In this document: positions 23,494-33,644 of the stretch, piece by piece
How positions within the stretch are numbered: position 1 is the first letter of the stretch
How the letters are laid out: each line of letters begins with the position of its first letter
DNA from: Acidobacteriota bacterium
GTDB taxonomy: Bacteria > Acidobacteriota > UBA4820 > DSQY01
Direction of reading: 5' to 3'
Assembly (NCBI GenBank): GCA_021787565.1
Contig: JAJYLT010000014.1
Span: 1 to 64,000, forward strand
DNA length: 64,000 nt
Notes under the pieces: generated by a model
Database searches by the model: none
What the model saw: only the letters and a program-made list of their open reading frames with translations
What the model was told of the DNA's origin: nothing
Program-made: the position numbers and the translations under genes

Positions 23494-24330
23494 CTAGGGC
23501 GCCTGGAGCCTGGAGAGCCGGTCCTTCGCGATGAGCGCTTCGTCGCTGTTGGGCGCGGCCTGGATCAGAGCCTTGAGGGTGGCGATGCCCTGGGCCGTCT
23601 CGTTCAAGGAAAGGTAGGTCAGGCCTAATTTCAGGCGCGCCGCCAGGACCTTGGGACTGGCGGGGTATCGCTCGATCACCGCCTCGAAGGCCTGCTGGGC
23701 GTCGGCATACCTCTTCTGGTTGTAGGCGCACTGCCCCATCCAGAACTGGCAGTTTCCCGCCTTGGGATCATTGGGGAAGGCCTCCATGAACTGCTGGAAC
23801 TCCGAGGAGGCCAGGTCGTACTTGCCCTGCAGGTAGTCGCTGTAGGCTTGGTTGTACAGTTCGGGGCTGGTCCCCTGGAGAGGTCCGCCAGGGGGGGCGG
23901 GCTGGGCGGCGGGCGGCTGCGGTGCCGCGGGTTTCTCCGGAGGCGCATTGGCGGTTTGAGGCTGCCGGCCCTGCGGCTCAGCGGCGGGCGCGGGTGCCGT
24001 CGCGGTCAAGGGGGGCGCGGGAGAGCGCTCCTGCCCCCCGGACTTCAACTGTCCGAGCTGGGTCGAGAGGACCTCGACCTGAGCCTTGAGATCCTCTACA
24101 TCCGCCCGGAGATCGGCCGTCTGGGCCGAGCGCGCGATGGCGTCCAGCCGGCCGTTCATCTCCTGGAGGCTCTTCTGAATGGCGGCCACCTGCCCCTGGA
24201 TCTGCTGGACCTGCTGGTTCAAGGTCGCCACCTGCTGGTCCAGGCGGTCGATGTCATCCCGGGTCCCCGCCAGAAGAGACAGAGGCACCACGAAAACCAG
24301 GGTACAGATGAGAATGGAGGTTCGACGCAT
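23494..24330 (-). CDS. cpoB: Tol-Pal system protein CpoB/YbgF
   Basis: A 278-residue periplasmic protein. It has a signal peptide (ILICTLVFVVPLSLLAG) and a coiled-coil (about 25-95) with LNQQVQQIQGQVAAIQKSLQ. A Pro/Ala-rich linker (about 100-155) follows, then TPR repeats starting ELYNQAYSDYLQGKYDLASSE with FPNDPKAGNCQFWMG. CpoB coordinates outer membrane constriction with peptidoglycan synthesis. It lies 5 nt downstream of pal; tolA/tolB are not in the window. Confidence 0.9.
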   Translation of the reverse strand: MRRTSILICTLVFVVPLSLLAGTRDDIDRLDQQVATLNQQVQQIQGQVAAIQKSLQEMNGRLDAIARSAQTADLRADVEDLKAQVEVLSTQLGQLKSGGQERSPAPPLTATAPAPAAEPQGRQPQTANAPPEKPAAPQPPAAQPAPPGGPLQGTSPELYNQAYSDYLQGKYDLASSEFQQFMEAFPNDPKAGNCQFWMGQCAYNQKRYADAQQAFEAVIERYPASPKVLAARLKLGLTYLSLNETAQGIATLKALIQAAPNSDEALIAKDRLSRLQAP

Positions 24331-24335
24331 CGGTC

Positions 24336-24887
24336 TTACTTCATGTGCTGAAGCACGAAGTCGTCGCGGCGGTTCTCCTGCCAGCAAGTCTCGTCATGCT
24401 CGGTGCACAGGGGGTGCGATTTTCCGTAGGAGACCGTCTGAATGTGATTGGCCGCCACGCCGAGGCCGATCAGATACTCCTTGGCGGCATTGGCCCGGCG
24501 CTCGCCGAGGGCGAGGTTGTAGGCCTCGGTATTGCGCTCGTCGCAGTTTCCCTCGACGATGACCTGGAACTGGGGATGCGCCAGCAGCCAGGCCGCATTC
24601 TGCTTGAGGATCTCGCGGTCTTCGGGACGGATGGCCCACTTGTCCGTGTCGAAATGAATGCGCTTGAGAACTCCCTGCTTGTTGAATGCGTCCGCGCTGC
24701 TCTCCACGGCGAGGGAGGGCGTGGGGGCCTCAGGTGTCCAGCCGGTGGCGGGTCCAGTTGAGGAGGGGTTTTCGGCCGCGGAGGGCGTCGAGGCCGGAGG
24801 AGCCTTCTTGGCGCAGGCCGCCAGAAAAACCAACAGGAGAACCGCGCTCAACACCGATGTGAGCCTCGTGCCCCAGCGCATTTTCAT
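24336..24887 (-). CDS. pal: Peptidoglycan-associated lipoprotein Pal
   Basis: A 183-residue lipoprotein. The lipobox LVFLAAC places the acyl-Cys near residue 25. A Pro/Ser linker and an OmpA-type peptidoglycan-binding domain follow, with IHFDTDKWAIRPED, VEGNCDERNTEAYNLALGERR and the final GKSHP region. It anchors the outer membrane to peptidoglycan. GGAGG lies 6 nt before the ATG at 24887; the longer frame is upstream DNA. Confidence 0.93.
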   Translation of the reverse strand: MKMRWGTRLTSVLSAVLLLVFLAACAKKAPPASTPSAAENPSSTGPATGWTPEAPTPSLAVESSADAFNKQGVLKRIHFDTDKWAIRPEDREILKQNAAWLLAHPQFQVIVEGNCDERNTEAYNLALGERRANAAKEYLIGLGVAANHIQTVSYGKSHPLCTEHDETCWQENRRDDFVLQHMK

Positions 24888-25023
24888 AGCACACCTCCAT
24901 TCATTGCCGATTATAGATACCAGACCCGCGCCTTCGCAAGGTTGGGGGGGAAGGCGAATTGTGAAATGCAAAATGCGAATTGAAAGGAACTGGGCGCGAT
25001 GGGATTTAGAGTTTGGCATTTTC

Positions 25024-25107
25024 CATCTCTCATCCATCATCTCTCATCCATCATCCCTCATCCATCATCCATCATCCATCATCTATCATCTATCATCTAT
25101 CATCCCC
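25024..25107. repeat. Longest heptanucleotide array (CATCNNN x12)
   Basis: Twelve consecutive in-register units of CATCCAT, CATCTCT, CATCCCT, CATCTAT and CATCCCC. It runs through the stop codon (25093) of the GNAT gene. The 200 bp between it and pal are AT-richer than average and show no gene. Confidence 0.85.
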
Positions 25108-25596
25108 CATCATCTCCCCCCCCAGCACGCGGGTGAAGATGACGCGGTGATCGCCCGGCGCGTAGAAATCCTGTATCTCGGCGGCCACCTTGTATCCGTG
25201 GCGCAGGTAGAACCGCCTCGCCGGCTTGTACTGCGGCAGCGAGGAGGTCTCGATGATGCAGAGCCTGCCGCCGCGACGGCGCATGTCCTCCTCCGCCCGA
25301 AGGAGGAGGGCGTGGCCCGCCCCCTTGCCGTGGCAGGCCGGGTCCGCGGCGATCCAGTAGAGGTCGAAGGTCCCCAGCGTGCACGGCGTGGCCCCCCAGC
25401 AGGCGTACCCCGCCACTTTGCCTTCCCCCTCGGCCACGAGGAAGGCGTAGTCGGTCTGTCCCGGTTTCGCCAGCGCCACGTCGATGAGTTCGAGGGCGAC
25501 CTCGATCTCCTCCGGCCGGAAGACTCCCGCCCGTTCCAGCATCTCCTTCAATTCCGATCTGTCCTCCCGCCTGAGCGCTCTCATTCGAAGGTCCAT
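25093..25596 (-). CDS. GNAT-family N-acetyltransferase (KamA operon)
   Basis: A 167-residue acetyltransferase. The acetyl-CoA site is WIAADPACHGKGAGHALLLRAEEDMRRRG (Q/H-x-x-G-x-G/A pattern near residue 95). It is followed by ETSSLPQYKPARRFYLRHGY and a conserved DFYAPGDHRVIFTR end. The ATG at 25596 with AAGGGGGAG overlaps the preceding gene by 16 bp. GNATs paired with lysine 2,3-aminomutase make N-epsilon-acetyl-beta-lysine in ablAB systems, so acetylation of a beta-amino acid or its conjugate is a reasonable guess. The C-terminal codons come from the heptamer array. Confidence 0.85.
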   Translation of the reverse strand: MDLRMRALRREDRSELKEMLERAGVFRPEEIEVALELIDVALAKPGQTDYAFLVAEGEGKVAGYACWGATPCTLGTFDLYWIAADPACHGKGAGHALLLRAEEDMRRRGGRLCIIETSSLPQYKPARRFYLRHGYKVAAEIQDFYAPGDHRVIFTRVLGGEMMGDDR

Positions 25597-26597
25597 GGCT
25601 CCCCCTTCTCGGCAGAGCCGAGGATGGTCGAAACGAGGTGGGCGTAATCCCAGCCCTCGGCTCGGGCCTGTTTGGCCAACCCCGCGGAGGGGGCGAGGTC
25701 CGGATTGGGATTCACCTCCAGAACGCACAGCGAACCCTCGCCGTCCTCGCGCAGGTCCACGCGAGCATAACCCCGGCAACCCAGGGCCCGGTAGGAGAGC
25801 ACGGCGAGCTGCTGCACTCGGTTCGAGAGCTCGGGCTCCACCGGAGCCGGGCAGAGGGTCGGGGTCTGCTGGTAGACGGGGCTCTCGGGCGCCCACTTGG
25901 CCTCGAAGGTCAGGACCGGAGGGTATCCCGGAGAGAGGGCGGAGTAGTCTACCAGGGAGGGCGGCAGCGGGTGGGGGCCCTCCGCCGTCTCCACCACCGA
26001 GCAGTTCAGCTCCCGCCCGGCCAGGAAGCTCTCCACGAGGACGCCCTGTGGGAACCGGTCCAGGAGATCGTCCAGCCTCTCGATGAGGGAGGCGCGGTCT
26101 TGCACGACGCTCGATGGCCCGATGCCGTGGCTCGCGTCATTGACGGCGGGCTTGAGGAAGACGGGGAATGGGAAGGGGAGGGACTCCGGCACCTCCTCGA
26201 TCCGCCGAACGTGCAGGCCCGCGGCCGTGGGAACCCCCTCGGCCGAGAGCAGGCGCTTGGCCAATGGCTTGTGAAGTCCCAGGTGCATGGCCACGGGCGG
26301 GCATCCGGTGGCCCTCAGCGCCAGGGCCTTGAGCAGGAGACCCACCTGGACCTCGCTGGAGGGATCGCCGGGGAAGCCCTCGAACAGGTTGAAGACCAAG
26401 GAGCCCTTGGACAATCGCTCCAAGGTCAGCGCTGCGGCGGACAGGGGAGCCGTGAGGGGCAGCCGAAAGACGCTCCGGCCTTGTTCGCACAGGACCTGCT
26501 CGACCGCCTCCACGGTCTCCATGACTCCCTCCTCGGCGGCGCTCTCGGGGAGGGACTGATCGCTCGTGTTGTGGATGAGGGTCACCGCAGCCGGCAT
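25581..26597 (-). CDS. ATP-grasp ligase, D-Ala-D-Ala ligase-like (second)
   Basis: A 338-residue ATP-grasp protein. The N-terminus (LVFNLFEGFPGDPSSEVQV) has the glutamate/valine pattern of the Ddl family. The central domain has FPVFLKPAVNDASHGI (ATP-binding lysine and loop). The metal site near the end is CVLEVNPNPDLAPSAG (Glu-x-Asn-x-Asn). It is too diverged from housekeeping Ddl to assign D-Ala-D-Ala. It likely ligates an amine to an aminoacyl carboxylate. Start 26597 (MPAAVTLIH) fits the fold; a GTG at 26642 overlaps the previous stop and is possible. Confidence 0.85.
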   Translation of the reverse strand: MPAAVTLIHNTSDQSLPESAAEEGVMETVEAVEQVLCEQGRSVFRLPLTAPLSAAALTLERLSKGSLVFNLFEGFPGDPSSEVQVGLLLKALALRATGCPPVAMHLGLHKPLAKRLLSAEGVPTAAGLHVRRIEEVPESLPFPFPVFLKPAVNDASHGIGPSSVVQDRASLIERLDDLLDRFPQGVLVESFLAGRELNCSVVETAEGPHPLPPSLVDYSALSPGYPPVLTFEAKWAPESPVYQQTPTLCPAPVEPELSNRVQQLAVLSYRALGCRGYARVDLREDGEGSLCVLEVNPNPDLAPSAGLAKQARAEGWDYAHLVSTILGSAEKGEPWTFE

Positions 26598-26638
26598 GGT
26601 TCCGCCCCGAACGTCGTCTTCCTGGTGCATTCCCTGCC

Positions 26639-27640
26639 TCACGCCAGTCCGCAGCGGGCGAAGGCGGCCGCCAGTATGCGCGACATCAGCGCCGGGTAGT
26701 CAAGACCCATGCCCCGCGAGAGGATGGGAAGGTCGCCGTAGGCCGGAGAGAGTCCGGGCAGGGGATTGATTTCCAGGAAGACGGGCACGCCTTCGCGGAT
26801 TCGGAAGTCCACCCTGGCCACGTCCCGGCAGCCGATCGCGGAAAAGGCCTTGACCGCGTCGGCGTAGAGTCGCGCCAGCAGTTCCGGCGGCAGCGGCGGA
26901 GGAACGTCGTAGGCGACCTGGTTCTCCCAGTCGCGCTTTACTTCGATGGAATAGACGAAGTCAGGGTCCGTGCCGCTCCTGGGCCGTATCCTCATGGCGC
27001 CGATGGCCTCGGGCGGGGAGTTCCCGATGATGCCGACGGTGTACTCGTCGCCGGCCACGAAGCCTTCCACCATCACGGGCTGACCGTAGGAGCGCAGCAT
27101 CTCCCCGACCGTCTCCTTCAGTTGCCTGGCCCCCTCCAGGCGGGAACTGCCGCGGATTCCCTTGGAGGAGCCCTCGAAGGCTGGCTTGGCGAAGAGTGGA
27201 AAGGGAGGGTCGCTCCGGAGCAGGCGGGCGAGATCCGATTCGCTCTCCACGACCCAGTCGGGCGCCACCGCCACTCCGGCGGCGGCCACGAGGCGCTTGG
27301 TGAGTGGCTTATCCAGGCTGATGGCGAGAGTGAGAGGGTCGGAGAAGCTGTAGGGTATGCCGAGCATCTCCAGCACCGAAGGCACCTGGCCCTCACGGCT
27401 CCTGAAGGTGCCGCGCCCCTCGGCGATGTTGAAGACGAAGTCCACGGGCTCGTGGAGCACCCGCTCCAGGAACTCCCGCCCACCGCCCAGGCGCACCACC
27501 TCATGGCCGCATTCCGCGATGGCCGCTTCGATGGCCCCTACGGTTGAAGGTGGATCGTACTCCTCGAAGAGATCATCGGGGAGCCCGGAGGGAACCGGGC
27601 TCCCCGCGGGCTTCATGTCAAACGTCAGACCGATTCGCAT
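26639..27640 (-). CDS. ATP-grasp ligase, D-Ala-D-Ala ligase-like (first)
   Basis: A 333-residue ATP-grasp enzyme. VDFVFNIAEGRGTFRSREGQVPSVLEMLGIPYSFSD-type features mark the N-terminal domain near residue 65. FPLFAKPAFEGSSKGIRGSS is the nucleotide loop. PVFLEINPLPGLSPAYGDLP is the metal site. It overlaps kamA by 23 bp. It is a paralogue of the ligase that follows but not a recent duplicate. Two ligases in a row with an aminomutase suggest stepwise assembly of a small beta-amino-acid-containing peptide. Confidence 0.87.
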   Translation of the reverse strand: MRIGLTFDMKPAGSPVPSGLPDDLFEEYDPPSTVGAIEAAIAECGHEVVRLGGGREFLERVLHEPVDFVFNIAEGRGTFRSREGQVPSVLEMLGIPYSFSDPLTLAISLDKPLTKRLVAAAGVAVAPDWVVESESDLARLLRSDPPFPLFAKPAFEGSSKGIRGSSRLEGARQLKETVGEMLRSYGQPVMVEGFVAGDEYTVGIIGNSPPEAIGAMRIRPRSGTDPDFVYSIEVKRDWENQVAYDVPPPLPPELLARLYADAVKAFSAIGCRDVARVDFRIREGVPVFLEINPLPGLSPAYGDLPILSRGMGLDYPALMSRILAAAFARCGLA

Positions 27641-28874
27641 CGGGGGTGGACCTGATCTGGGCGAGGTGGGGACGGGTGCCGCGGCTGGAGCGGCCCTGGG
27701 CGGGCTGGGCCACCGGGCGCCTTGGTTTGCTTCGGACCGCGGGAGCGGGGTTCCTGTAGGGGAAGATCTTGCCTTCGTAGTTGCGCAGAACGAGCGTATC
27801 CTCGGTGGCGTACATGATGTAGTTGGAGGTGATGGGAACCTTGCCTCCGCCTTCCGTGTCTACGACGAAGGTGGGGATGGCGAGCCCCGAGGTCCACCCG
27901 CGCATCTTCTCGATGATCTCCACGCCGGTCCAGACGGAGGTTCTCAGGTGTTCGGCCCCGTGGATGGGGTCGCACTGGAAGAGGTAGTAGGGGCGGACTC
28001 CCATCTTCAGGAGCCCTTGGCAGAGCCTGAGCATGGTCTGTGCGCTGTCGTTCACCCCCCGCATGAGCACGGACTGGTTGTTCACCGGGATGCCGGCGGA
28101 GAGGACCTTGCGGCAGGCGGCGGCGGCCTCGGGGGTCAGTTCGTTGGGATGGTTGAAGTGGGTGTTCATCCAGACGGGCAGGTGCTTCCCGAGAATGCCA
28201 ACCAGCTCATCCGTGATGCGCTGAGGAAGGACCACGGGGAACCGCGTGCCGATGCGGATGATCTCCACGTGAGAAATCTTGCGGAGCTCCGTGAGGCAGT
28301 AGTCGAGCACCGGCAGCGGAAGGGAGAGGGGGTCGCCCCCCGAGAAGATGACGTCACGGATCTGCGGGCTGCGCCGGATGTAGTCGATCATGGCGTCGAG
28401 CTGCTGGCGGTTCTTCGGCAGCTCGCCGTCCTCCCACTCCCGGCGACGGGTGCAGTGGCGGCAGTACATGGGGCACATGTTGGTGGCGATGAAGAGGCAG
28501 CGGTCGGGATACCTGTGCACCAGCCCCTCCACCGGCATGTCGGCATCCTCGCCCAGGGGGTCGTCGATGCCCACGCTCCGGTAGGTGTATTCCAGGATCG
28601 AGGGGACGGCCTGCTTGCGAACGGGGTCCTCGGGATCGCTCGGATCGATGAGGCTCAGGTAGTAAGGAGGGATGCCGACGTGCAGACTGGGCGCGAGGAG
28701 CTTGAGCTGCTGGTACTCGCTCTTGGAGTAGGGAAGGAGGCGGTGGAGGGTCTCGAGATCCTTGACGCGGTTTCGGTACTGCCACCGCCAATCGTTCCAC
28801 TGCTCATCGGTGGCCTCGGGGAAATAGGACGACCTTCCTGAAAGGGATGATGATGGTGCTGGACTATCCAGCAT
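27618..28874 (-). CDS. kamA: KamA-family radical SAM aminomutase (lysine 2,3-aminomutase-like)
   Basis: A 418-residue radical SAM enzyme. The [4Fe-4S] motif is C134-xxx-C138-xx-C141 in TNMCPMYCRHC, followed by FSGGDPL (SAM binding) near 178. The PLP lysine is K345 in EGGGKVPITSNY. Asp302 and Asp339 stand where the clostridial enzyme binds the substrate epsilon-amine, which favours lysine, although the glycine loop is one residue shorter. The product would be beta-lysine. A basic, Ser/Arg-rich C-terminal tail (about 385-418) is unusual. GGGAGG lies 5 nt before the ATG. First gene of a four-gene overlapping operon. Confidence 0.9.
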   Translation of the reverse strand: MLDSPAPSSSLSGRSSYFPEATDEQWNDWRWQYRNRVKDLETLHRLLPYSKSEYQQLKLLAPSLHVGIPPYYLSLIDPSDPEDPVRKQAVPSILEYTYRSVGIDDPLGEDADMPVEGLVHRYPDRCLFIATNMCPMYCRHCTRRREWEDGELPKNRQQLDAMIDYIRRSPQIRDVIFSGGDPLSLPLPVLDYCLTELRKISHVEIIRIGTRFPVVLPQRITDELVGILGKHLPVWMNTHFNHPNELTPEAAAACRKVLSAGIPVNNQSVLMRGVNDSAQTMLRLCQGLLKMGVRPYYLFQCDPIHGAEHLRTSVWTGVEIIEKMRGWTSGLAIPTFVVDTEGGGKVPITSNYIMYATEDTLVLRNYEGKIFPYRNPAPAVRSKPRRPVAQPAQGRSSRGTRPHLAQIRSTPDANRSDV

Positions 28875-29037
28875 GGCGGCCTCCCTGCGGCCCCAGCTCC
28901 ATGCCGGGCGCCTCGCCGACTAGGTCTCCAGAAACGACAATGCCTCGCTGGAAATGAGCGAGGCCAAAGGATCCGACATATTGTAATGCCCTCTTCTTCT
29001 TGAGGGCGGCGGGACTTGGTGGCTGTTCCTGTTCCAT
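28864..29037 (-). CDS. Possible 57-residue leader or small protein ahead of kamA
   Basis: An open frame of 57 codons from ATG 29037, ending 11 bp inside kamA so that kamA's ribosome site is within it. The translation has a basic N-terminal part (LKKKRALQYVG) and GIVVSGDLVGEAPGMELG. Codons in the first half are AT-richer than the genome average and the start has only a weak ribosome site. It may be a translated leader or only part of the structured leader RNA. Confidence 0.3.
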   Translation of the reverse strand: MEQEQPPSPAALKKKRALQYVGSFGLAHFQRGIVVSGDLVGEAPGMELGPQGGRHAG

Positions 29038-29118
29038 CCTGTTCGCCGGGAACCGATCCCGGCCCCTCCTGCTTCTATCGTTCCAAAGCACCGCGGACCG
29101 CCCGCCTGCTTTGAACTT
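28875..29118 (-). promoter_or_regulatory. Long hairpin-rich 5' leader of the kamA operon
   Basis: About 244 nt separate the predicted transcription start from the kamA ATG. On the minus strand they hold at least four hairpins: CAAAGCA/TGCTTTG (29113-29084), CCGGGA/TCCCGG (about 29062-29046), CCCTC/GAGGG (about 29010-28993) and CCTCGCT/AGCGAGG (28963-28943, 7-nt loop). No T-run follows any of them. A cis-acting RNA is likely; it matches no riboswitch class I can name. Confidence 0.5.
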
Positions 29119-29124
29119 GTGGCA

Positions 29125-29152
29125 AATATAGACCTTTTGAAGCCGAAGTCAA
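29125..29152 (-). promoter_or_regulatory. Strong sigma-70 promoter of the kamA operon
   Basis: On the minus strand -35 TTGACT (29152-29147) and -10 TATATT (29130-29125) with a 16-bp spacer. It lies in the AT-richest stretch of the region. Predicted start about 29118. Confidence 0.75.
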
Positions 29153-29440
29153 GAGCCTTCGAGCGGGGGCTGGAGACGAAGCGGAAAACGGGTGACCTGG
29201 TCGGGAAGCGCCGCCCGCGCTAGGCTGCGAGAAGGAGACGGCATGGTCGCAAGAGGCGGGGCGGCGGGCACGGCCGGAGGAGATCGATTGGCGCGCCGAA
29301 CGACATCGCCCAGCCCGCCGGCTTCCGCGGGGGAGAGGCGTGGCGGAGCTACCTGACGCGGTGCTTCGAACCGATCTACCAAAAGGCGCGGTACGAGTTA
29401 TGGAAGCGAAAGGAGGGTCGGCCGATCGGGTGACGGGCGG
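29153..29440. other. Intergenic stretch with a possible gene remnant
   Basis: 288 bp without a convincing gene. The plus-strand frame ending at a TGA near 29433 reads GGEAWRSYL...YQKARYELWKRK, which looks protein-like over about 40 codons. It has no start and its upstream part becomes Arg/Gly low-complexity. It may be the tail of a decayed gene; I recognise no family. Confidence 0.3.
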
Positions 29441-30346
29441 TCAGTTCTCCAGCAGGAGAATGGCCACCCCCAGAAAGGCCACGAGGGTTCCCAAGAACGC
29501 GCGCCTGGAAATACGTTCCTTGAAGAAGATCCATACCAGGGGGAGGAGGAGGACGGGTACGGGGGCCATGAGCGCCGATGCCACCCCCACCTTGGCGTGG
29601 CTCACGGCGTACAGGGAAAGCCAGACCCCCACGAAGGGCCCCGTGGCGGCGCCGCAGGCCGTATAGAGCAGGGCCCGGCGGTCCCTCAGCTTGTCGAAGC
29701 TCTCCCTCACGCCGCCGAGGGCCACGGTCACGATGAGGATGCCGAAGGTCGCCACGACCATACGGATGAGGGTCCCGGAGAGAGAGCTCACGCCCTCCCT
29801 CAGGCCCTCTTTGGCCGCCACCAGCCCCGCGGCTTGGCAGAGCGCCCCGCCGAGCGCGAAGGCCGTGCCTCGGCCGAGCCTTCCGTTTCTGACCGGGCCG
29901 GCCGTGGGGCTCCTTTCGAGCACCACCCACGAGATGCCGGCCAGGGTCACGAGGATGCCCAGGAACTCCAGCCAGGTGAGGGACTCTCCCAGGAAGGCGA
30001 TGCCCATCAACGCCGAGAAGATGGGCCAGGAGGACATGATCAGCGTGGCCTTTCGCGGGCCGAGCTCGATGTAGGATTGGAAGAGGAAGCTGTCCCCGAG
30101 GGTCAGGCCGATGAGCCCCGACAGGCCCAGCCACAGCCAGCTCTCCAGGGGAGCGGAGAGGGGGAGGAGCGTTCCGTAGAAGAGAAGGTGCGTCGCCCCC
30201 AGCAGGAGCACCGCGAAGACCAGCCGGGTTCTGTTCACCGCCAGCGCCCCGACTCGGGTGCTGGCCAGCGTGAAGTAGAGGGCGGTGAAGGCCCACACCA
30301 CGGCCGTGAGCAGAGCGGCCAGTTCGCCGAGCCTGGATGCGATCAC
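29441..30346 (-). CDS. EamA/DMT-family transporter
   Basis: A 301-residue membrane protein with ten hydrophobic segments in two EamA repeats (ALLTAVVWAFTALYFT... and FALGGALCQAAGLVAAKEG...). Repeat ends carry the ALMGIAFLGESLTWLEFLG and PLVWIFFKERISRRAFLG signatures. It probably exports a small metabolite; substrate unknown. The GTG at 30346 was preferred because AGGAGG lies 7 nt upstream; an ATG at 30385 would add a low-complexity Gly/Arg tail. The upstream gap holds a CACCAAGGCACCA-type repeat (30454-30474). Confidence 0.85.
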   Translation of the reverse strand: MIASRLGELAALLTAVVWAFTALYFTLASTRVGALAVNRTRLVFAVLLLGATHLLFYGTLLPLSAPLESWLWLGLSGLIGLTLGDSFLFQSYIELGPRKATLIMSSWPIFSALMGIAFLGESLTWLEFLGILVTLAGISWVVLERSPTAGPVRNGRLGRGTAFALGGALCQAAGLVAAKEGLREGVSSLSGTLIRMVVATFGILIVTVALGGVRESFDKLRDRRALLYTACGAATGPFVGVWLSLYAVSHAKVGVASALMAPVPVLLLPLVWIFFKERISRRAFLGTLVAFLGVAILLLEN

Positions 30347-30598
30347 GAGGGGGCCTCCTCCGCCCCTGCGGAGGCCGGGCGGCATCCCACCTTACTCCAG
30401 CGCCAGCCTCAGCGGCAAGGGACTTCGGAGCCGAACTGCCGGGAAGGAGAATGACCACCAAGGCACCACGACACCGGGACCGGTAGGAGGGGGATGGCGA
30501 AGTCCGAGCGTCAGCAGAGCCGGACGGGTGGTCGCGCCTTCCTCTCCACCCTCCACCGTACCGGAAGTACACTGTCGATCCGACGAGAGGAGGACGTC

Positions 30599-31414
30599 AT
30601 GGGGACGATGGCGAGGGCGCTGACGATTGCAGGGTCGGACTGCAGCGGCGGGGCGGGCATACAGGCGGACCTGAAGACCTTTCACCGCTTCGGAGTCTTC
30701 GGCATGTCGGCGGTGACGGCCGTGGTGGCCGAGAACACCGTGGGCGTTCAGGGGTGGGCGGCCGTGACGCCCGACATGGTGGCCCGGCAGATCGACAGTT
30801 GCCTGAGCGACATCGGGGCGGACGCCGTCAAGACGGGCATGCTCGTGGATGCGGCCGTGATCACGGCCGTCGCGGCCCGCCTGCGCGCGCAGGGGGCGGG
30901 GAACCTCGTGGTCGATCCCGTGATGAGGGCCAAGAGCGGAGACCCGCTCATCGCACCCGAGGCGGTGGAGGTTCTGGTCCGGGAACTCTTTCCCCTCGCC
31001 CGCCTCGTGACGCCCAACGTCCCCGAGGCGGAAGCGCTCGTCGGACGGTCCCTCCGGACGGAGGCCGACCTGAGGGCGGCGGCCGAGACCATCCGGGGCC
31101 TCGGCCCCGAGGTGGTGGTCATGAAGGGGGGGCACAGCCCGGCCAACCCTGCGGGGCTCTGTGTGGACTTCGTCTGGGACGGGAAGGAGTGGTGGCCCCT
31201 GGAGGGGGCCCGCGGTCCCGATCGCCACACCCACGGCACAGGCTGCACCTTCTCCGCCGCCCTGACGGCCATGCTCGCGCGTGGAGCACCGTTGCGGGAG
31301 GCCCTGAGCGAGGCCAAAGCCTTCATCACGGAGGCGATCCGCACCGCACCGGGACTCGGCGGCGGCCACGGCCCCGTGAACCACTGGGCGACCGTGGAGC
31401 GCGGGGACCGCTGA
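30599..31414 (+). CDS. thiD: Hydroxymethylpyrimidine/phosphomethylpyrimidine kinase
   Basis: A 271-residue ribokinase-fold enzyme. The N-terminal ALTIAGSDCSGGAGIQADLK is diagnostic of ThiD. GMLVDAAVI, DPVMRAKSGDPL and the anion-hole HTHGTGCTFSAALTAML (catalytic Asp replaced in-motif by Gly-Thr-Gly-Cys, as in this family) follow. It phosphorylates HMP and HMP-P for thiamine synthesis. GAGGAGG precedes the ATG at 30599. No other thiamine gene is nearby. Convergent with the S9 peptidase gene, 13 bp apart. Confidence 0.95.
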   Translation: MGTMARALTIAGSDCSGGAGIQADLKTFHRFGVFGMSAVTAVVAENTVGVQGWAAVTPDMVARQIDSCLSDIGADAVKTGMLVDAAVITAVAARLRAQGAGNLVVDPVMRAKSGDPLIAPEAVEVLVRELFPLARLVTPNVPEAEALVGRSLRTEADLRAAAETIRGLGPEVVVMKGGHSPANPAGLCVDFVWDGKEWWPLEGARGPDRHTHGTGCTFSAALTAMLARGAPLREALSEAKAFITEAIRTAPGLGGGHGPVNHWATVERGDR

Positions 31415-31427
31415 TCGCCCGCCGCCG

Positions 31428-33644
31428 TCAGCGTCTGCTCCCGCCCTCGGCCAGGTGCCGCTCGAAGAACGCGAGGATCCGCTTGAAGAGATCGGTCCTC
31501 TCCGCTGGCCCCTTGATGCCGTGGTCCATGCCGGGGTAGTAGGCCATGTCGAAGGGCCTGGCTGCGGCGTAGAGGGCGCTCACCATCTGGGCGCTGTTCC
31601 CGAAGTGAACGTTGTCGTCCACGAGCCCCTGGGCGATGAGCAGGGCGCCGTGCAGCTTCGCCGCGTCGTGGACCGGCGAGCTCTTCGTGTACCCCGCTTC
31701 ATCGTCCTTGGGAAGCTTGAGGTAGCGCTCCGTGTAGCAGGTGTCGTAGTTGAGCCAGTTGGTGACCGGCGCCACCGAGACGCCGCATCGGAAGGCATCC
31801 GTATGGGTGAGGGAGTAGAGGGTCATGAAGCCGCCGTAGCTCCAGCCCCAGACGCCGATCCGCTGGGGGTCCACGTACGGCAGTCGTTTCAAGGCCTCTA
31901 CTCCGGCGAGCTGATCCTCCAGCTCGCTCTTCCCCATCCTGTCCAGAAGCACCCCCTCGAAGGCGGTCCCGCGCCGGCTGGAGCCGCGGTTGTCGAGCAT
32001 GAAGTAGACGAAGCCGGCTTGGGCGAAGAGCTGGTCGATGGTGGCCCAGCGCGGCTCGAAGCGGTCCTGGACGATCTGGAAGTCCGGCCCTCCGTAGACC
32101 TCCACGACGGCCGGGTAGCGGCGGCCGGGGACGTAGTCCCTGGGTTTGATGACCTCGGCGTGCAGGACGGTCCCGTCGGCCGCGCGCAGGGTCATGAACT
32201 CGGGCTTCACGAAGCCATAGGTCCGGAGGAAGCCCGTCTGACCGGCCGCCACGAGATGCTGCCTCCCGGTGGCGGTATTCGTGAGGGTGAGGTCCGCCGG
32301 AACCCCCGCCCGGGAGTAGTCGTCCAGGTACTCCTTGGCCGACGGCGAGAAGATGGCCTCATGCCATCCCTCGCCCTTGGAGACGGTCTTCAGATCCTTG
32401 CCGTCCAGGCTCACCGAGCAGACCTGGCGGCCGGTGGTCTCATCCTTGTTGGCGGAGAAGAAGACCGTCTTCTCCGAGGGGGCCACCGCGAGGATGCCAT
32501 CCACTACCCACGGACCACCGGTGAGCCGGCGGACCAGCCCCTGCCGGAGGTCATATAGATAGATGTGGGCGAATCCGTCCCGCTCGCTCAGCCAGAGAAA
32601 CCGCCTGCCGTCCTTGAGGAAGCGCGGGGTCTCGAGAACATTCACCCAGGTGGAGGAGCTCTCCTGGAGGATCTGGCTCGATGGGGAGCCGTCCAGGGGG
32701 GCCGCGTACAGGGTCAGCTTCTGCTGGCCGCGGTCCAGCAGCTCGTAGGTGAGCGTCCTTCCGCCCGGCACCCAGGCGACCCTCGGCAGGTACCCCTGGC
32801 CCGACTCGGCGCCGGGAATCGCAACGGCCGTGCCGCCACCCCCCGCCGGGACGACCCAGAGGCTCACGGCCGGGTTGGGATCGCCGGGGCGGGGGTAGAA
32901 CTGCTGCCGCACGCCCGGCTGGAGTTCGCGCTGATCCACGATGGGGTAGGTGGGCACGCCCGTCTCGTCGAAGCGGAGGTAGGCGATGTGGGAGCCGTCG
33001 GGAGACCACCAGAAGGCCGTCGTCATGTCCAGCTCTTCGCCGTAGAGCCAGTCGGGAGCCCCGCAGGTCACGAGGGGAGACTTCCCCTCGGCCAACAGCT
33101 TCCTGGCTCCGGTGGCGCGGTCCACCACCCAGAGATTGCCGCCCTCGGTATAGGCCAGCCGGCTGTCGTCGGGGGACCAGGCGAGCCCCCCCGCCTCCTC
33201 GCCGGCCGGTGTGACGCGAGTCAAGGTGTGTTCGGAGAGGTCCCAGACGAAACAGCCCTCGTTGCCCTGCAGCAGCAGATAGCGGCCCGCGTGAGAGAGC
33301 CGGTAGCCCGTGAACTTGGCCTCGCTCAGCTTCTCGGAGGAGAGTTGGGCCAATCCGCCGAGGGCCTTGCGGAACTGTTCCTGGGTCAGCAATGGAGAGG
33401 CCTTGCCGGGCCGGAGGTCGTAGCTCATGAGGTCCGCCGCCTCGCCGTAGGCGTGGGGGGCGAAGTAGCAGAAGCGGACCCCGTCGGGCATCCACTGCAG
33501 CTCGCTCGGCAGGGGAGAGGCCGACCCGATGGCCAGGGCCTCCTCCACGGTGAGGTTGGTCGGCACGGGGGCGGCCATGGGAGCTGTTCCGAAGAGCAGG
33601 AAGGCCAAGAGAACCATCGGCAGGCAACGGCGCAGGCGGAGCAT
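31428..33644 (-). CDS. Secreted S9-family prolyl oligopeptidase (DPP IV-like)
   Basis: A 738-residue peptidase. It has a signal peptide (CLPMVLLAFLLFGTAPMAA) and an N-terminal beta-propeller with repeated WSPDGSHIAYLRFD-like blades. The alpha/beta-hydrolase catalytic domain has Ser near 603 (GWSYGGFM), Asp near 677 (QGLVDDNVHF) and His near 707 (YPGMDHGI). Family members remove dipeptides, often after proline, from peptides in the periplasm. AAGGAGGT precedes the ATG. It starts a protein-degradation stretch with the peptidases at 33814 and 35337. Confidence 0.92.
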   Translation of the reverse strand: MLRLRRCLPMVLLAFLLFGTAPMAAPVPTNLTVEEALAIGSASPLPSELQWMPDGVRFCYFAPHAYGEAADLMSYDLRPGKASPLLTQEQFRKALGGLAQLSSEKLSEAKFTGYRLSHAGRYLLLQGNEGCFVWDLSEHTLTRVTPAGEEAGGLAWSPDDSRLAYTEGGNLWVVDRATGARKLLAEGKSPLVTCGAPDWLYGEELDMTTAFWWSPDGSHIAYLRFDETGVPTYPIVDQRELQPGVRQQFYPRPGDPNPAVSLWVVPAGGGGTAVAIPGAESGQGYLPRVAWVPGGRTLTYELLDRGQQKLTLYAAPLDGSPSSQILQESSSTWVNVLETPRFLKDGRRFLWLSERDGFAHIYLYDLRQGLVRRLTGGPWVVDGILAVAPSEKTVFFSANKDETTGRQVCSVSLDGKDLKTVSKGEGWHEAIFSPSAKEYLDDYSRAGVPADLTLTNTATGRQHLVAAGQTGFLRTYGFVKPEFMTLRAADGTVLHAEVIKPRDYVPGRRYPAVVEVYGGPDFQIVQDRFEPRWATIDQLFAQAGFVYFMLDNRGSSRRGTAFEGVLLDRMGKSELEDQLAGVEALKRLPYVDPQRIGVWGWSYGGFMTLYSLTHTDAFRCGVSVAPVTNWLNYDTCYTERYLKLPKDDEAGYTKSSPVHDAAKLHGALLIAQGLVDDNVHFGNSAQMVSALYAAARPFDMAYYPGMDHGIKGPAERTDLFKRILAFFERHLAEGGSRR

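Follow-up and report, generated by a model that had tools for sequence, protein, structure and literature searches.

A conserved aminomutase, ATP-grasp ligase and acetyltransferase operon in an acidobacterium is a candidate pathway for acetylated beta-lysine peptides

The stretch of DNA analyzed here, referred to as the window, comprises 64,000 nucleotides of an Acidobacteriota MAG (3.47 Mb, 98% complete), and the operon under study lies on contig G000:C56 of that genome. A sequence-only reading of the window had described an overlapping KamA/ATP-grasp/ATP-grasp/GNAT operon, and all four open reading frames were found where it had placed them, on the minus strand. The gene farthest upstream encodes KamA (27618..28874, 418 aa), a radical-SAM protein of the lysine-2,3-aminomutase type, recognized by a match to TIGR03820, a LAM_C domain and alignment to 2a5h. 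It overlaps by 23 nt with the gene for AG1 (26639..27640, 333 aa), the KamA-adjacent "core" ligase, which is followed by the gene for AG2 (25581..26597, approximately 338 aa). Both are Ddl-fold ATP-grasp ligases, assigned on PF07478, on a clade of their own in each case and on structural models. The last gene encodes a GNAT N-acetyltransferase of approximately 167 aa (25093..25596; PF13508/PF00583).

The probable start of AG2 is ATG 26597, which lies 41 nt past the stop codon of AG1; GTG 26642, where a longer frame opens, is less likely, because homologues begin at the ATG, an SD-like GGCGGA precedes it, and the model shows residues 1 to 15 of the longer form as disordered (pLDDT below 50). 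The 267-aa frame listed for the GNAT gene, which opens with GTG, is over-extended; if the SD-preceded ATG at 25596 is its start, the gene overlaps AG2 by 16 nt. A candidate promoter, TTGACT-16-TATATT, is located on the minus strand at 29125..29152, approximately 250 nt upstream of the KamA start. Three promoter-like sites of this kind were found versus 0.4 expected in shuffles, all of them consensus matches only. The candidate promoter lies between KamA and the next same-strand gene upstream, which lies over 560 nt away and encodes an EamA-type transporter. No riboswitch or other Rfam family was detected above chance in positions 24000 to 31500. Directly past the GNAT stop codon, a 7/14-bp tandem repeat of CATCTATCATCCAT units was observed in approximately six copies (window 25024-25105).

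KamA aligned end to end with the lysine-2,3-aminomutase (LAM) of C. subterminale (2a5h; E=1e-133), and the CxxxCxxC motif, the Arg, Asp302, Asp339 and the PLP Lys345 are all present. As had been proposed from the sequence, the two aspartates are kept, aligning with Asp293 and Asp330 of the clostridial enzyme. Furthermore, the three cluster cysteines, Arg134, Asp293, Asp330 and Lys337 (LAM numbering) were conserved in 55 of 55 KamAs scored, module-linked or unlinked. The protein reached 479 bits with the AblA model TIGR03820, under the equivalog cut-off of 525.4, and it is therefore termed LAM-like rather than AblA. Its score with the EpmB model TIGR03821 was 237 bits (cut-off, 369), and the models for glutamate and arginine aminomutases gave scores far under their cut-offs. 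A FastTree phylogeny, whose root is unsure, placed it apart from E. coli EpmB and from the clostridial LAM clade, grouping it with other module-linked KamAs and with those of a sister family. Together, the retained LAM residues, the low scores of other aminomutase models and the tree placement point to lysine as the expected substrate. An EpmB identity, which the sequence-only reading had set out as a refuting outcome for this clade, was rejected on the model score, the LAM_C domain, the tree and the active-site residues. The glycine loop before the PLP lysine is indeed one residue shorter (DTEGGGK), as that reading had noted; it was discarded as a functional sign, since the short loop is common to the whole order, including relatives without ligases, and therefore has no bearing on operon function. 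In the sister family (L172-L175; G032, G058, G070 and G081), KamA occurs without ligases; its neighbors there are a ferritin-like protein and subunits resembling 2-oxoacid:ferredoxin oxidoreductase, a conserved context distinct from that of the module.

Both ligases scored far under the cut-offs of the Ddl models TIGR01205 and NF002378 (246 and 243 bits, respectively), AG1 reaching 129 and 153 bits and AG2 100 and 118 bits. A phylogeny against housekeeping Ddl had been suggested as a check: in a quick IQ-TREE analysis of 42 AG1, 37 AG2 and only two Ddl sequences, in which the Ddl rows were long, AG1 and AG2 each occupied one side of a branch and neither grouped with Ddl. An ordinary Ddl (236 bits) is encoded elsewhere in the window genome, at C4, which ruled out the earlier concern that AG1 and AG2 might be the only Ddl genes present. 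With E. coli DdlB as the reference, the residues that serve ATP, Mg and phosphate (K97, K144, E180, E187, K215, R255, D257, E270 and N272) were kept nearly everywhere, whereas the substrate residues Y216, S281 and L282 of D-Ala-D-Ala ligase were not retained in either protein. The equivalent of Tyr216 is Trp in 37 of 37 AG2 sequences and mostly Arg, Glu or Trp in AG1. The Ser281-Leu282 clamp reads x-Gly in AG2; in AG1, this segment is 1 to 4 residues longer and includes an Asp that is conserved (Asp303 of the AG1 encoded in the window). An invariant pair, Glu27 and Asp29, is additionally found close to the substrate end of AG1. Predicted models of AG1 and AG2 (pLDDT 92 and 89, respectively) had Ddl structures as their best fold matches. 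Because the catalytic set is kept, the D-Ala pocket is changed and a Ddl fold is predicted, both proteins probably work as ligases on a substrate other than that of Ddl, perhaps a diamine.

The survey of KamA neighborhoods, which covered many MAGs, showed that the module recurs. Among 396 Acidobacteriota genomes, AG1 was found in 64, and KamA was present in 62 of these 64 versus 19 of the 332 that lack AG1 (Fisher P of approximately 1e-52). AG1 and AG2 were adjacent in all 38 acidobacterial loci inspected; KamA lay next to them in 32, and 35 contained a GNAT domain. KamA lies on another contig, away from the ligases, in G005, G021, G030 and G043, and the ligases of G026 and G340 have no close KamA and may therefore take another amino acid. 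Two gene orders were seen, KamA-AG1-AG2-GNAT and AG1-AG2-GNAT-KamA; the GNAT gene is the conserved last member of the AG1-AG2-GNAT set, and L014 has it joined to AG2 as a fusion. Scanning of genome contigs recovered the module in Acidobacteriota, Dehalococcoidia, Myxococcota, Planctomycetota, Calditrichota and Nitrospirota, the last of these with AG2 and GNAT as one fused protein; a reduced KamA-AG1 pair occurs in Dehalococcoides-like, Anaerolineae and Clostridiaceae genomes. Intact frames conserved in dozens of divergent loci ruled out chance adjacency of the four genes. Pairwise distances of KamA, AG1 and AG2 correlated at r values of 0.81 to 0.83 (0 of 2,000 permutations), a figure that includes shared ancestry. 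Beyond lineage-local neighbors, no conserved transporter, export gene or other fifth gene was found at the surveyed loci, and no Mur/Fem-type genes were conserved beside the module. A fusion of GNAT to an HDAC-family domain was present in seven surveyed loci. In the Myxococcota MAG locus L027 (2502-12283), the module has upstream of it genes for an additional ATP-grasp protein and a decarboxylase-like protein, together with a citrate-synthase-like gene, and downstream of it GNAT-HDAC, GNAT and arginase-family frames. The open-access literature searched held no report of KamA joined with ATP-grasp ligases.

AG1 was also found in 54 of 294 Dehalococcoidia genomes, and the full four-gene module in 20 of 24 loci inspected in this class. 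Three single-contig genomes of 1.36 to 1.52 Mb (G452, G416 and G501, the last of which we take to be D. mccartyi 195) possess only KamA and AG1, and AG1 is their sole standalone PF07478 ligase. In G614, G549, G471 and G527, which is presumably Dehalogenimonas lykanthroporepellens BL-DC-9, AG1 and AG2 are the sole standalone ligases of this family. The other PF07478 matches in these genomes were read, by protein length, as biotin-carboxylase and carbamoyl-phosphate-synthase proteins. Two Dehalogenimonas-like genomes (G486 and G592; L243 and L242) encode, apart from the KamA module, a further Ddl-like ligase with an open frame of 377 aa. Dehalococcoides and Dehalogenimonas are described as being without peptidoglycan or as having no envelope data (PMC10284905). 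The ddl gene is nonetheless widespread in Dehalococcoidia, which was taken as a trace of ancestral peptidoglycan synthesis (PMC10284905). A simpler reading is that the "ddl" of the Dehalococcoides-like and most of the Dehalogenimonas-like genomes checked would be the KamA-linked ligase. This offers a direct explanation, other than a peptidoglycan relic, for ddl in peptidoglycan-less Dehalococcoidia, and it implies that the name D-Ala-D-Ala ligase is wrong for proteins so annotated next to KamA.

Collectively, these findings suggest that the module makes a small cytosolic acetylated beta-lysine di- or tripeptide, compatible-solute-like or polyamine-like rather than cell-wall material, a reading to which we assign a probability of roughly 0.6. 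A beta-amino-acid conjugate pathway, as the sequence-only reading had proposed, is the natural interpretation of a lysine-type KamA, two non-housekeeping ligases and an acetyltransferase in one conserved unit. In the proposed scheme, KamA would convert L-lysine to beta-lysine, and AG1 would activate an amino-acid carboxylate with ATP to an acyl phosphate, then form an amide in which beta-lysine is either the donor or the acceptor. This role is suggested for AG1 because it always accompanies KamA, keeps the Ddl catalytic set and has, in place of the D-Ala pocket, conserved acidic residues suiting a diamine. AG2 would add a second unit, and GNAT would N-acetylate a free amine, yielding the acetylated beta-lysine di- or tripeptide. 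KamA and AG1 would thus form a minimal core and AG2 and GNAT its elaboration; in some lineages, the GNAT-HDAC-family fusion presumably strips acetyl groups. More tentatively, and at somewhat less than even odds in our estimate, the module may define a family of acetylated beta-lysine peptides made independently of NRPSs and ribosomes by Ddl-derived ligases in at least six phyla, with the "ddl" of wall-less Dehalococcoides being a beta-lysine ligase and not a peptidoglycan relic. If true, a compact module spread over at least six phyla, and carried by cultured organohalide respirers among others, yields an uncharacterized primary or stress metabolite. No tie between the module and salt was found, the salt papers on Dehalogenimonas naming only ectoine and mannosylglycerate, and Dehalococcoidales have other known solutes.

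Several other roles can be weighed against this interpretation. The sequence-only reading had left open a cell-wall bridge, and the predicted Ddl fold of AG1 and AG2 would suit ligases that build a beta-lysine peptidoglycan bridge or stem variant. However, peptidoglycan-less Dehalococcoidales still carry the module or its core of KamA and AG1, no Mur/Fem-type genes accompany it and the housekeeping Ddl is separate; the retention in peptidoglycan-less Dehalococcoidia disfavors a cell-wall role to the extent that it was rejected, and we regard it as very improbable. For the secreted compound that the same reading had also entertained, no conserved transporter or export gene was found at the surveyed loci. 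In a variant of the preferred interpretation, the product would act not as an osmolyte but as a polyamine-like beta-lysine peptide, a polycation with a charge adjusted by adding and removing acetyl groups. The GNAT-HDAC-family fusions and the arginase-family gene of L027, both typical of polyamine metabolism, and the retention of the module core in small Dehalococcoides-like genomes make such a product worth serious consideration, and AG1 has acidic residues where the substrate would bind, but polyamine genes are not consistently linked and the HDAC domain occurs in a minority of loci, and we give this variant a fairly low probability.

Two further alternatives would leave the ligases outside the pathway, and both are improbable. 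KamA could mainly feed beta-lysine to EpmA for modification of EF-P, the ligases being unrelated neighbors. The window genome does encode a GenX/EpmA homologue above the curated cut-off (G000:C37:21472-22389; L192) and an EF-P whose Lys34 loop reads PGKGSAF (G000:C58:59839-60006; L096), holds no other KamA-family gene and no EpmB-type protein, and belongs to a family (f1) in which EpmA is present in every genome except G109. However, EpmA was found in 10 of 64 module genomes versus 35 of 332 others (P = 0.28), or 4 of 57 versus 33 of 330 without f1; KamA is LAM-like with LAM_C and not EpmB; and the conservation of two ligases and GNAT with KamA stays unexplained by EF-P supply. Because EpmA and a Lys34-loop EF-P are present and no other KamA-family protein is, KamA may also feed EF-P here: no source of beta-lysine for EF-P other than the operon enzyme is visible in the window genome, and supplying EF-P is a possible second use of KamA in family f1. 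The other alternative is an ablAB variant, in which KamA and GNAT make N-epsilon-acetyl-beta-lysine and the ligases serve something else. The ablA and ablB genes encode the same two enzyme classes, and beta-lysine derivatives are known osmolytes (PMC1224877), but AblB (TIGR03827) had no match in GNAT or anywhere in the window genome, and the constant partner of KamA is AG1, not GNAT. Moreover, the acidobacterium G379 has a true ablA-ablB pair above cut-off (575 and 291 bits) on a contig apart from its module, so that ablAB and the module are distinct systems; the missing AblB and this coexistence ruled out plain ablAB. The ablAB locus of G379 is L191:6253-8483; its ligase module, which has a GNAT-HDAC fusion upstream, is the separate locus L154.

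Among known systems, the preferred pathway to an acetylated beta-lysine peptide can be compared with ablA/ablB of methanogens and some bacteria, in which a LAM-type aminomutase and a GNAT likewise share an operon and lysine is the likely common substrate; unlike that system, the module has a KamA under the AblA cut-off, a GNAT that is not AblB and two added Ddl-fold ligases. Genes for lysine 5,6-aminomutase (kamDE) or for lysine fermentation (kdd, kce and kal) were absent beside the operon. EpmB shares the KamA superfamily and beta-lysine formation, but it is a short form lacking LAM_C, with Glu in place of D330, whereas the module KamA has both LAM_C and the Asp. N-acetylglutaminylglutamine amide (NAGGN) is made by ATP-grasp and GNAT activities, and as an N-acetylated dipeptide solute it resembles the proposed product; AG2 and GNAT are fused in L014. 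The module differs in that it has an aminomutase, lacks a neighboring asparagine-synthetase partner or M42 peptidase and contains ligases that score as Ddl family, and the AsnO and Ngg models (NCBIfam) were not among the matches listed for the four proteins. The NAGGN compound itself is described in PMC1224877. Ddl shares with AG1 and AG2 the predicted fold and the whole ATP/Mg catalytic set; in contrast, AG1 and AG2 form separate clades with the Tyr216, Ser281 and Leu282 equivalents replaced and scores far under the Ddl cut-offs, and they are retained in wall-less bacteria, while the window genome has a Ddl of its own.
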